A DNA stretch of 64,000 bases from Maricaulis salignorans (GTDB lineage: Bacteria > Pseudomonadota > Alphaproteobacteria > Caulobacterales > Maricaulaceae). The position numbers were made by a program, and so were the translations under genes. The notes below the pieces were generated by a model. It was not told where the DNA came from. It ran no database searches and saw nothing but the letters and a program-made list of their open reading frames with translations. Below are positions 9,847 through 12,730 of this stretch, piece by piece. The first letter of the stretch is position 1. The number at the start of each line of letters is the position of its first letter. The stretch spans positions 1 to 64,000 of the forward strand of contig NZ_FNHG01000004.1 of assembly GCF_900103475.1 (NCBI RefSeq), in the 5' to 3' direction.

Positions 9847-9996
9847 GAGCAGTTTTCCGGGTCCTGACCATGTCTGCCCTCCCGATCAAACCGCCTCAAT
9901 CAAACGTCATGCTGACGACGGTCAGGCCCCGGTTTCAGCCGTCACGCGAATAGAACAGGCGACAGACTTCATTGCGTCGCCGCTCTATGAACTTGG

Positions 9997-10027
9997 CCCT
10001 GACCGTTGTCAGGGTGACGATATTTTT
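9997..10027 (+). terminator. Possible rho-independent terminator
   Basis: A perfect 7-bp hairpin CCCTGAC-CGTT-GTCAGGG (9997-10014) is followed six bases later by a T run (ATATTTTTG). It is about 150 bases after the EEP gene stop, on its strand. The distance lowers confidence. Confidence 0.4.
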
Positions 10028-10052
10028 GAACTTTTGAGAATTAATTGTCTCA

Positions 10053-10158
10053 AGCTCTTCCCCCGGAGGAGCACAGCGAATTCCGGGGCCTACCACGCGT
10101 TGACCGCCTGGCTGGATTTCCCTCCGGCAGACCCCGGAACACGTCCGGGGAAAAAGCT
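10053..10158. repeat. REP-like intergenic inverted element (type 1)
   Basis: The outer 15 bases AGCTCTTCCCCCGGA (10053-10067) match the reverse complement of the right end (10144-10158) at 13 of 15 positions, and each half holds its own small CCGG-rich hairpin (CCCCGGAGG...TTCCGGGG and CCCCGGAAC...GTCCGGGG). This is the paired-REP layout common in alphaproteobacterial intergenic DNA. It has no coding potential. It lies 39 bases before the covarying palindromic element. Confidence 0.6.
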
Positions 10159-10197
10159 ATGTTGTGTTTAGTCCCGAGTAGGCCCGTGGCCACACCT

Positions 10198-10361
10198 CGC
10201 CCTGAAGCCCATGCCGGGATCCGGCCAGACTGGAATTATCTAGTCAAGGGTGAAACCGCGAAGCGGCGCTACGCGCCCTTGACTAGATAATTCCAGTCTG
10301 GCGCCCTGCTTGGCAAGGATTTCAGGGGTCGATGCGCCCGGCGCGGGCAAGTTTTGAAGGG
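10198..10361. repeat. Palindromic dispersed element, copy A
   Basis: A 164-bp element with a near-identical copy at 12408-12571 in the same orientation (about 147 of 164 positions equal by eye). Its core is a perfect 26-bp inverted repeat, 10225-10250 against 10276-10301, around a 25-nt loop that contains a nested CCGC-GAA-GCGG hairpin. CCTGAA (10201-10206) can also pair with TTCAGG (10321-10326), closing an outer helix. The short frames crossing it are not credible genes. The compensated differences between copies suggest that the folded form matters. Confidence 0.85.
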
Positions 10362-10458
10362 AAGTAATTTTGCAGAAATTTGGACCGAGGGTGATGGTGT
10401 GCGCGCCCGTGCCCGTTATTTGTGGGCAATATGATCTGGACGAGAAATAGAGGTAGCC

Positions 10459-10668
10459 ATGCAGCACGTCATATTTGTGGGCCGGGCATTATTGATCGCC
10501 GCTCTGGTCGGGCTTTTCACCGGGGCGCTTCTCGACCTCCTTCTAGCTTGGACCCAAGACGAGCCGCTTTTGCTCTCCTGGGGCCGCCCATTACTCCTGG
10601 CAGGCATCCTCGTATTTGTCCAAGCGGTGGCGGTGGCTTCTCGGTACATATCCAAGAATAAACAGTAA
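10459..10668 (+). CDS. Small two-helix membrane protein, unknown function
   Basis: A 69-residue protein with two hydrophobic helices (about residues 5-29 and 42-61), an acidic connecting loop (TQDEP) and a basic C-terminal tail (SRYISKNKQ), so the tail is probably cytoplasmic. The ribosome site AGAGG lies 5-9 bases before ATG 10459. It sits alone between the first repeat pair and the convergent propeller gene. I recognise no family. Its codon use and topology make it plausible, but its small size leaves some doubt. Confidence 0.55.
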   Translation: MQHVIFVGRALLIAALVGLFTGALLDLLLAWTQDEPLLLSWGRPLLLAGILVFVQAVAVASRYISKNKQ

Positions 10669-10812
10669 CAGCCGTCTATTGCGACGCGCATCTGTCTGAG
10701 TAGGGAGGACACTCCACCAGCCTTTTGTTGTGCAGGGGGCCTATGCCTCAGACAAGACCATGCGGTCTTGAGAGGCGACCCGCGCCCGCCCCAGGATGCG
10801 CGCGCCCCCTCC
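10669..10812. other. Intergenic region between convergent genes
   Basis: No gene is seen. It contains the inverted repeat CAAGACC-ATGC-GGTCTTG (10754-10770) enclosed by GCCTC/GAGGC, which could form a strong hairpin between the two convergent stops, but there is no T run. Confidence 0.5.
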
Positions 10813-12042
10813 TCAACGCCCCTCCACACTCACCCGCGCAATATGATTGGTCCCGCTCTGATGGATCAGCAGGGCCTCGCCATCGCGGCTGGTGCGCATG
10901 TGGCGCAAGATGCCGGCATGGACCGGGCCTGAAGGGATGGGCCAGCTCTGAAAAGCCTCGGTTTCGGGGTCGAAGCGCACCAGCATGTCGGGCCTCACGC
11001 CGCTTTCATTGTACCAGATCGCGCCATCAAACACGGCGATGGCATAGGGGTGCGAATCCGGACCGCTGGGCGAGGCCCATTCGCGGATATCGCCGGTGGC
11101 CGGTTCGTAGCGGCCGAGCCGTCCCAGTGCCGAATTGACCCACCAGATGATGCCATCGCTATCGATATCGAGGCGGCGCACGGTCGTGCCGGCGTCCGGC
11201 AGCGTGATTTCCTCGACGGCCATCGTGTCCGGATCGACGCGCAGCAGGCAATTGGCGCCATTGCAGGCGACCCAGACCATGCCATCGGCGGCGATCTTCA
11301 CGCCATAGGGGCGCGAGCGTTCGCGCGGGCTGGTGACCAGGCGGACCTCGCCGCTTTGCGGGTCGAGACGGCCGATCATATTGCTGCCCTGGAGCGAGAA
11401 CCAGAGGATGCCATCGGCGTCGAACTCGGCCGTGTGCGGATCGCGCGCAGCCTCGTCGGGCATCGGATACTCGGTGATCTCGCCGGTCGCCGCATCGAAG
11501 CGGCCAATGGTGGCGTTGCGATTGCCGGTATACCAGGCATCACCATCCGGGCCGATCGTCACCGAATGCGGCCGCGCGCCGGCGGGCAGATCGAATTCCT
11601 CCATCGCCCCCGTTTGCGGATCGAGCCGGCCGAGAATATCCAGCCATTGCCCCACCCACCAGATATGGCCATCGGGCCCCTCGACCGGATCGCGCGAACG
11701 CTGCCCCAGGGTCGGCACCTGCCATTCCTCGAAGCGGATGGTGAGCGGCCCGTCGACCGGTGTCGCGGCCCGGTTATCGTTCGGCGGGTAATGTTCCGCC
11801 AGATAGTCGAGGATCTCGGCCTGCATCTCCGGCGCGCCTGACAGATCCACCATGGTCGAGGTCAGCGCGCGCCAGTCATCGCGGGTATAGCCGGAGCTAC
11901 GCTCGACCGTGCTGATCGCATGACAGGCCGCGCAGACGGATTCGACGGTGTCGCGGGCATGGCTGTCCGTTTGCGCGAAGGCTGCAGCGGGATAGCAAAG
12001 CGCGGCGGCGAGGATGAGAGCGGGAAGCGTGTGGCGCGGCAT
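10813..12042 (-). CDS. Exported cytochrome c / virginiamycin-B-lyase-like beta-propeller protein
   Basis: This 409-residue protein has a cleavable signal peptide (residues 1-23, ending AAAFAQ), one haem-binding CAACH motif at residues 37-41 with a small cytochrome c-like region to about 90, then a seven-bladed propeller of repeats such as GPDGHIWWVG, GPDGDAWYTGN, DADGILWFSL and AADGMVWVACN. The propeller matches the Vgb/streptogramin-lyase-like family (COG4257), most members of which are not antibiotic lyases. A periplasmic redox role is inferred from the haem site. ATG 12042 is chosen because it directly starts the signal peptide. The gene lies between the two palindromic repeat copies. Confidence 0.8.
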   Translation of the reverse strand: MPRHTLPALILAAALCYPAAAFAQTDSHARDTVESVCAACHAISTVERSSGYTRDDWRALTSTMVDLSGAPEMQAEILDYLAEHYPPNDNRAATPVDGPLTIRFEEWQVPTLGQRSRDPVEGPDGHIWWVGQWLDILGRLDPQTGAMEEFDLPAGARPHSVTIGPDGDAWYTGNRNATIGRFDAATGEITEYPMPDEAARDPHTAEFDADGILWFSLQGSNMIGRLDPQSGEVRLVTSPRERSRPYGVKIAADGMVWVACNGANCLLRVDPDTMAVEEITLPDAGTTVRRLDIDSDGIIWWVNSALGRLGRYEPATGDIREWASPSGPDSHPYAIAVFDGAIWYNESGVRPDMLVRFDPETEAFQSWPIPSGPVHAGILRHMRTSRDGEALLIHQSGTNHIARVSVEGR

Positions 12043-12186
12043 GTCAGGGCTTTCGGCGGTGGCATGATCGGGGCAGTGTAGCGGGGAAGTTTGGTTTGGG
12101 GGAGGGAAAACGGCGATGCGGTATCGCCAGCGGCGGCGACCGCCCTGGCAAGCGCAACGAACGCCACCTCCCAACAAGAACAACAC

Positions 12187-12362
12187 ATGTCATCCCTGAC
12201 GGATGCCCCGCAAAAGCGGGGCGCAGATCAGGGACCCAGAACCTCCATCGCGACTCCAGCTTGATGAGTTCAGCCAATCGCGCAAGCCACATGCGTCGGG
12301 CGTCTGGGTCCCTGATCTCCGCCCGGATCGCTGGCGCGTCCGGGCATCCGTCAGGGATGACA
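12187..12362. repeat. MITE/REP-like element with long imperfect terminal inverted repeats
   Basis: The left arm (12187-12239, starting TGTCATCCCTGACGGATGCC and ending CAGATCAGGGACCCAGA) and the reverse complement of the right arm (12303-12362) share their outer 21 bases exactly and their inner 17 bases nearly exactly, with a variable hairpin in the middle of each. The 63-bp centre has no gene. A non-autonomous element or a paired REP (BIME) is the best reading. Confidence 0.7.
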
Positions 12363-12407
12363 ACGCGTGGTGATTTGAGGTGAGAGGCCCCACGCAGGGC
12401 CAGAGCC

Positions 12408-12571
12408 CGCCCTGAAAACCATGCCGGGATCCGGCCAGACTGGACTTGTCTCGTCAAGGGTGAAACCGCGAAGCGGCGCTGCGCGCCCTTGACGAGACAA
12501 GTCCAGTCTGGCGCCCTGCTTGGCAAGGGCTTCAGGGATCGCTCTGCCCGGCGCGGGCGTGTTTTGAAGGG
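12408..12571. repeat. Palindromic dispersed element, copy B
   Basis: The second copy of the 164-bp element at 10198-10361, same orientation. Its 26-bp arms (12435-12460 and 12486-12511) are again perfectly complementary even though three bases differ from copy A in each arm; every change in one arm is matched in the other. The loop differs at one base. It begins 45 bases after the inverted element ending at 12362, mirroring the arrangement of copy A. Confidence 0.85.
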
Positions 12572-12671
12572 GCCTAATCGTCATCGAGATTTGGCCGCGA
12601 AAAGAGGAGGAGCGTCGTTTCCCATGTGCGGCGCAGGGCATCCACCGCACTACGCTCGCCCCCCAGCGAAC

Positions 12672-12704
12672 AAAAAGCCGCGACACCCCCAGGGCATCGC
12701 GGCT
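12672..12704 (-). terminator. Rho-independent terminator of the ppi operon
   Basis: On the minus strand AGCCGCGA (12704-12697) pairs with TCGCGGCT (12683-12676) around a 13-nt loop and is followed by a TTTTTG run. It lies 27 bases after the cyclophilin stop codon. Confidence 0.8.
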
Positions 12705-12730
12705 CTTCAATTCAGCACATCCGCCGGGGC

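Follow-up and report, generated by a model that had tools for sequence, protein, structure and literature searches.

A dispersed family of intergenic hairpin elements in Maricaulis whose arms are probably kept complementary by replication template switching

Introduction

What keeps the arms of a long palindrome complementary while their sequence changes? The question is raised by a stretch of 64,000 nucleotides (nt) from Maricaulis salignorans (positions 1 to 64,000 of contig NZ_FNHG01000004.1, assembly GCF_900103475.1; hereafter the window), which contains two directly repeated copies, A and B, of a palindromic element that differ in their stems only by paired substitutions. The original prediction, made from the letters of the window, left three options for this pattern: a structured RNA, a DNA cruciform, or hairpin-templated correction of one arm by the other. 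The analyses below place both copies in a family of miniature palindromic DNA elements that are dispersed between genes, have a polar and presumably recognised core, and probably owe the complementarity of their arms to template switching during replication. Among the three options, templated correction fits best and structured RNA is disfavoured; a constraint on the DNA hairpin seemingly exists as well.

Results

Sequence and fold of the two window copies

Positions 10198-10361 and 12408-12571 align without gaps and differ at 17 of 164 positions, just as predicted, and the repeat runs on to 181 nt at 87% identity. The inverted repeats pair perfectly, but over 27 base pairs (bp) in both copies instead of the 26 bp first reported. 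All six differences within the arms (positions 10235, 10238 and 10242 on one side; 10284, 10288 and 10291 on the other) are compensated, three A-T pairs of copy A being replaced by C-G, G-C and C-G in copy B. The loop contains the nested CCGC-GAA-GCGG hairpin described earlier and also a second mini-hairpin, CGC-TAC-GCG, which had been overlooked, and the outer pairing that had been thought possible is real, in the form CCCTGAA/TTCAGGG. The two copies are built as follows.

10200..10327, + strand: hairpin element copy A, with outer stem CCCTGAA (10200-10206) and TTCAGGG (10321-10327); loop orientation F
10224..10250, + strand: left arm of the 27-bp perfect stem of copy A, terminating in the GTCAAGGG core
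10256..10266, + strand: tip mini-hairpin 1, CCGC-GAA-GCGG, which recurs across the family
10267..10275, + strand: tip mini-hairpin 2, CGC-TAC-GCG
10276..10302, + strand: right arm of copy A, starting with the CCCTTGAC core
12410..12537, + strand: hairpin element copy B, with frame and loop orientation as in copy A
12434..12460, + strand: left arm of copy B, with three differences from copy A
12461..12485, + strand: loop of copy B with its two mini-hairpins
12486..12512, + strand: right arm of copy B, with three differences that match those of the left arm

Folded as DNA, both strands of both copies reach z-scores of -9.9 to -10.7 against 200 shuffles. The minimum-energy structure predicted for copies A and B has a single hairpin at the tip, not two. 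A tip of two mini-hairpins is supported by covariation of the second one over the family: its stem occurs in eight distinct sequences and pairs perfectly in 157 of the 160 copies that could be parsed (18 of the 178 copies were unparsed).

A repeat family of Maricaulis

Family members have a nearly fixed layout of about 134 nt, in which an outer stem and an internal loop are followed by the 27-bp stem, closed by the TCAAGG/CCTTGA core, and by the tip with its two mini-hairpins. About 20 bp of the 27-bp stem vary across the family, and a GCC at the base of the arm is near-invariant. A DNA search of the strain's own genome (G000) returned 35 matches, many of them one place found on both strands, and a covariance model built from 16 copies gave 51 matches there at E<=10 (both strands counted), corresponding to 20 distinct full-length places. 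The search of related genomes with such a model, which the original prediction had proposed, found matches in 21 of 61 genomes. These are the strain itself, 16 of the 18 others of the genus and four of 24 from the same order, the latter with one or two weak matches each; none of 18 genomes from other genera of the same family matched. In G017, a shrunken copy alone was present.

A pattern confined to the core counted 22 copies in G000, where one copy at the ends of contigs C10 and C14 probably figures twice, 39 in G015, 54 in G018 and 21 in G009. Three of 51 listed matches in G018 have unrelated spacers and look like chance, and the core pattern read backward, used as a control, had no match in any of the four genomes scanned. 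A description of this family was not found in the literature searched, subscription papers being mostly beyond the reach of that search.

Shrunken copies (L023/L030 at G000:C9:87026-87095, and L066 in G017) keep the frame and have lost most of the hairpin; they resemble deletions at short repeats. Contigs C14 and C19 of G000 end inside element copies, and C10 ends 231 bases past a copy that looks like the one on C14, so the assembly of G000 breaks at this repeat.

Complementarity of the arms

Covariation in the 16-copy alignment lies far above that of shuffles. In its 27-bp helix both letters have changed in 15 pairs and a single letter in none, and two cells are unpaired; six one-sided changes and seven unpaired cells were counted in the outer helix. 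Because a collection based on the model could favour paired copies, pairing was recounted with the core-only pattern TCAAGGS-spacer-SCCTTGA, in which the arms play no part in selection. This recount covered 129 copies (19 of 22 in G000, 21 of 21 in G009, 39 of 39 in G015 and 50 of 54 in G018), omitting matches that lie no more than 95 bases from the end of a locus and the three G018 matches with unrelated spacers. All of the 19 arm pairs scored are Watson-Crick pairs in 102 copies, 18 are in 17 copies, 17 in eight and 16 in two. Mismatched arms in most copies had been named beforehand as the outcome that would leave selection on the fold unsupported; instead, 102 of the 129 copies are perfect at positions 1-19.

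Non-pairs occupy 39 of 2451 cells and read, in loop orientation, GT in ten cases, AC in seven and otherwise in 22 (one with N). These 39 cells have no excess of G·T, the pair whose tolerance is expected of RNA helices, and non-pairs without such a preference point to DNA rather than RNA.

Changes in place at orthologous sites

Orthologous copies, matched by comparing their flanks, allow the changes to be followed in place. All 35 overlapping comparisons together yield 39 paired changes, of which 27 are transversions, and 26 one-sided ones. When each copy is used once, 28 pairs of orthologs result. Four of these, with four to five paired changes each (19 paired, no one-sided), were excluded because another copy may have replaced the original, and the remaining 24 have 14 paired changes, ten of them transversions, and 16 one-sided changes. 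An earlier, hand-picked set of 22 comparisons gave 17 paired and 11 one-sided changes. If the 44 changed letters among the 912 arm letters of the 24 pairs were independent, about 42 one-sided changes and less than one complementary pair would be expected. Most paired changes being transversions, which cannot pass through G·U, an RNA helix is disfavoured here too.

At one locus (G009:723828 versus G015:748683), orthologous flanks enclose a frame of unchanged orientation, while one loop is the reverse complement of the other apart from a single difference; three paired changes are all that separates the arms. The script that assigned loop orientation left nine of 178 copies unassigned and misassigned two, which gave false flips, and for this reason only pairs inspected individually were used. 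Paired substitutions in place and loop inversion are the marks by which template switching in palindromes is recognised, and both occur here, the inversion clearly at one locus. Monttinen and Loytynoja ascribe compensatory change and loop inversion to template switching (PMC8794818), and Klaric et al. describe the same route as perfecting quasipalindromes in E. coli (PMC7202029); a single event thereby introduces both substitutions of a pair, makes the arms fully complementary and may turn the loop around. The cases described there concern RNA genes, engineered reporters and natural hotspots, whereas in Maricaulis a whole repeat family would be maintained.

A polar core with a fixed mismatch

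The pair just outside TCAAGG was compared in 118 copies (122 hairpins were found and four removed, one of them unrelated and three belonging to other genera; two of the 118 were re-oriented by hand). Of these copies, 63 have G-C at this pair, 31 have C·C and 24 have G·G, and C-G was not seen. By a finer loop classifier, C·C occurs with loop orientation F (28 copies, plus three unassignable), and all 24 G·G copies have orientation R; coarser classifications had placed one C·C copy under R and two G·G copies under F, assignments that the finer reading removes. Pooling 178 copies in loop orientation gives 100 C·C, 74 G-C and four G·G, and the loops of these four, unassigned or misassigned by the script, read as R by eye. 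Pairs next to the fixed mismatch still covary in mismatched copies. The core is thus polar, with GTCAAGG on at least one of its sides, suggesting that a protein recognises it. Since the mismatch is kept at a fixed position and in a polar manner, some constraint on the DNA hairpin itself seems to exist.

Orientation and genomic setting

Mapping of orientation and location, likewise proposed with the original prediction, associates the polarity of the core with the direction of replication. In the complete genome of G015, the core has orientation R in 21 of the 28 copies that lie on one half, against two of the 11 on the other half (with the terminus assumed at 1.56 Mb, p=0.0026; two alternative positions give 0.006 and 0.007, the three tried spanning 0.0026-0.0073), and parS-like sites at 3.245-3.276 Mb put the origin near the record ends. 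The corresponding counts in G009 are seven of nine and three of 12 (p=0.03; 0.004-0.03 over five terminus positions tried). The 49 assignable copies of G018 are grouped by contig to a degree reached in one of 20000 shuffles, and each contig of G000 is uniform in orientation (18 copies; 405 of 20000 shuffles). A pooled p of 5.7e-5 for the replichores is no more than indicative, as it treats related genomes as independent.

No copy among the 118 overlaps a called gene. By the calls of a simple in-house codon-score caller, 43 copies lie between convergent, 42 between tandem and ten between divergent genes, and 23 at edges. Between tandem genes the core has no link to gene direction (23 same, 19 opposite), and a reading as terminators was rejected for this lack of orientation. 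An integron-like array of gene cassettes was considered because neighbouring copies are co-oriented and flank genes. Integron attC sites have R and L boxes with conserved AAC/GTT, extrahelical bases and adjacent cassettes. The cassette reading was set aside because the association with replication direction can explain the shared orientation.

Discussion

Origin of the complementary arms

Template switching would act on these elements as follows. A replication fork would expose the site as a single strand, in which the hairpin may form; a polymerase that switches template between the arms would then copy a mutation across, so that a paired substitution arises in one event, and copying through the loop would invert it. 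The elements themselves may spread as mobile miniature elements that are inserted or retained with a preferred orientation with respect to the fork, and such a preference would suggest that an enzyme recognises the folded strand. The original prediction had also allowed for arms that are identical through recent gene conversion alone. This is close to the reading preferred here, but the conversion would run from arm to arm.

Several observations weigh against that reading. Chimeric copies with several mismatches resemble two joined alleles, and one ortholog in G016 is badly mismatched; copies do decay and recombine. Two more loci switch loop orientation with loops that have diverged or been replaced, and these are not simple inversions. 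Some of the paired changes could stem from ectopic conversion by another copy, since only some of the derived arms occur once. The replichore tests lean on an assumed terminus and on related genomes that are not independent. A precise empty site with target duplication was not found, the orthologous regions being too diverged or rearranged for a junction to be read, and we therefore infer mobility instead of observing it. Finally, the C·C mismatch, which reads G·G on the opposite strand, is kept at one position in about half of the copies and is linked to loop orientation, although blind correction between arms should erase it or yield both outcomes.

This polar mismatch tied to loop orientation speaks for selection on the folded DNA strand, as do the near-invariant GCC at the arm base, the covarying second mini-hairpin and the association with replication direction. 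A protein such as a transposase, recombinase or replication factor would then need an intact hairpin, mismatched copies would be lost and the paired changes would be true compensatory double mutations. However, selection would have to act strongly on some 20 bp in every one of dozens of copies between genes, and a paired transversion would have to pass through an unpaired state, whereas one-sided changes are not in large excess (16 versus 14). We regard folded-strand selection as rather unlikely. Ectopic gene conversion or recombination between copies, by which elements or cores are swapped for other perfect copies, would explain why chimeric copies look like two alleles joined and why four ortholog pairs differ at four to five pairs together. 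It would also account for one locus in G016, where an element of opposite frame orientation has other arms, and for the two loop switches that involve different loop sequences. However, several derived arm strings are unique among the 118 copies compared, and exchange between copies cannot create the first pair of a new variant, which makes such exchange on its own a doubtful and quite improbable explanation. A structured RNA (a small RNA, mRNA stabiliser or attenuator) conserved by compensatory changes would agree with the covariation far above shuffles and with the 43 convergent settings, versus ten divergent, among the 95 copies with both neighbours called. It would leave unexplained the absence of a wobble preference, the indifference to the direction of tandem genes and the presence of both loop orientations within one frame. 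Moreover, Rfam searches at the gathering score found only a tRNA and no match to the element in 14 loci, and all matches in the window stretch were below threshold. A functional RNA is thus very unlikely to underlie the family, and template switching between the arms of a DNA hairpin remains the preferred reading.

Comparison with known systems

REPINs, doublets of REP sequences that come with RAYT transposases, are likewise miniature extragenic hairpins in many copies, but are described as having invariant inverted ends of 16 bp and a less conserved spacer (PMC3116915), whereas in the Maricaulis element the outer stem and the arms vary and it is the TCAAGG/CCTTGA core, next to the loop, that is conserved. 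The Caulobacter intergenic repeats (CIR), intergenic long stem-loops of about 110 bp in related Alphaproteobacteria, are portrayed with two arms, a linker and GANTC at the terminal loop (PMC2229807); the Maricaulis element, in contrast, is one nested hairpin. GANTC is absent from 10198-10361 and 12408-12571, the two window copies read, and GAGTC occurs in the internal loop of some family copies.

Three Clostridia loci with IS256-type (Transposase_mut) genes, L192, L241 and L309, share a TCAAGGG...CCCTTGA core just 3' of the gene. Unlike the Maricaulis elements, L241 has unpaired arms outside the core (3/20). Parvovirus terminal hairpins have a T-shaped tip of two small palindromes and occur in two orientations. 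The tip of the Maricaulis element is similar, but the element is internal and chromosomal, and a Rep protein was not identified.

Distribution beyond Maricaulis and candidate enzymes

A 22-base core pattern matches at least 115 stretches of named genomes, 80 of which were listed. Outside Maricaulis, the matches listed belong to Hyphomicrobiales, Xanthobacteraceae, Aquisalinus, Marinicaulis, Acidobacteria, Lachnospiraceae and other Clostridia. Arms were scored in all 39 non-Maricaulis loci among the 80, three of their 41 matches lying too near an end. Although the pattern is blind to the arms, 12 or more of 20 arm pairs form in 31 of the 38 scorable matches among those listed, and the outer helix spans at least 9 bp in 22 of them. 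Seven fall below 12 of 20 (e.g., L221, L228, L236, L241), and some of these are probably due to chance.

As to enzymes, the two transposase families considered gave no mobilising candidate. A RAYT/Y1 transposase was rejected as a required partner, Y1_Tnp (PF01797) being present in five of 19 genomes of the genus and, among the seven richest in model matches (at least 36-55, both strands counted), in G000 and G009 only. IS256 was similarly rejected as a present partner in Maricaulis, where PF00872 occurs in two of 19 genomes, one copy with stops; in the three Clostridia-type loci L192, L241 and L309, by comparison, a Transposase_mut gene is directly followed by the core downstream. A phage origin was also dismissed: seven stretches of viral contigs match the pattern, but the five Maricaulis-type copies, on three contigs, could be host DNA, and the matches in L309, L310 and L311 are of other kinds. 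Among the features of miniature inverted-repeat transposable elements, an outer stem and a lineage-specific presence at the window locus were seen; a target-site duplication and a transposase partner acting in trans were not found. A more far-reaching idea, which we consider tentative and improbable, is that of a hitherto undescribed class of DNA structural elements common to several phyla, with a conserved T-shaped tip and a stem of free sequence. A putative enzyme would recognise and copy such an element as a single strand, on one of the two strands at the replication fork, by a kind of hairpin transfer in which one arm is renewed from the other and the tip is flipped.

The window locus

Both window copies lie in a stretch of about 2.9 kb between a gene of the endonuclease/phosphatase family (PF03372) and a cyclophilin gene (PF00160), together with a gene of the Vgb_lyase family (PF24684).

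9847..12730, no strand assigned: stretch with both elements and the Vgb_lyase-family gene, not present in the interval between the flanking genes in seven relatives

The PF03372-PF00160 interval is free of the element in all seven relatives read (G009, G011, G013, G014, G015, G016 and G018). The gap between the alignment ends measures about 95-110 bp in G009, G011 and G013 and about 580-590 bp in G014, G015, G016 and G018. Other sequence adjoins the cyclophilin gene in G006, G008 and G017, and the stretch inspected there contains no element. Since the interval is element-free in relatives, the elements must have reached the lineage of the strain, alone or with the gene, and their presence at this locus is an insertion specific to that lineage. 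In ten of 26 loci of relatives, in five genomes, a loose match resembling the core (spacer 18-36) was counted as chance, because it has a 20-nt spacer and no mini-hairpins and falls at the 3' terminus of the cyclophilin gene.

Two small GC-rich sequences stand just outside copy A.

10181..10191, no strand assigned: GGCC-CGT-GGCC, hairpin-like
10336..10348, no strand assigned: GCCC-GGCGC-GGGC, hairpin-like

By eye, similar GC-rich sequences occur upstream of many other copies in the flanks inspected in G000, G009, G015 and G018, and motifs such as CAGACACAATTAAT and TGTGTCCCC recur outside but near some copies of G015, G018 and G000. An unrelated palindrome with arms TGTCATCCCTGACGGATGCCC and GGGCATCCGTCAGGGATGACA lies beside copy B (window positions 12188-12362); parts of it match many places across the genus, which marks it as another dispersed repeat. 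Upstream of copy A, the window has a 30-nt inverted repeat, 80% complementary, at 9905-10019. A different repeat of about 120 nt (L357 3388-3508, on G018:C3) occurs several times in G015, G009, G016 and G005.

Implications

Perfect covariation is usually taken as strong evidence for a functional RNA, and this family is a warning for RNA discovery based on covariance. With dozens of copies per genome, covariation without wobble preference, a wealth of transversions and a loop inversion, it points to replication instead. The family also constitutes a natural assay of arm-to-arm correction by strand and by position, and the core that it has in common with distant phyla points to a putative enzyme that may read folded DNA.

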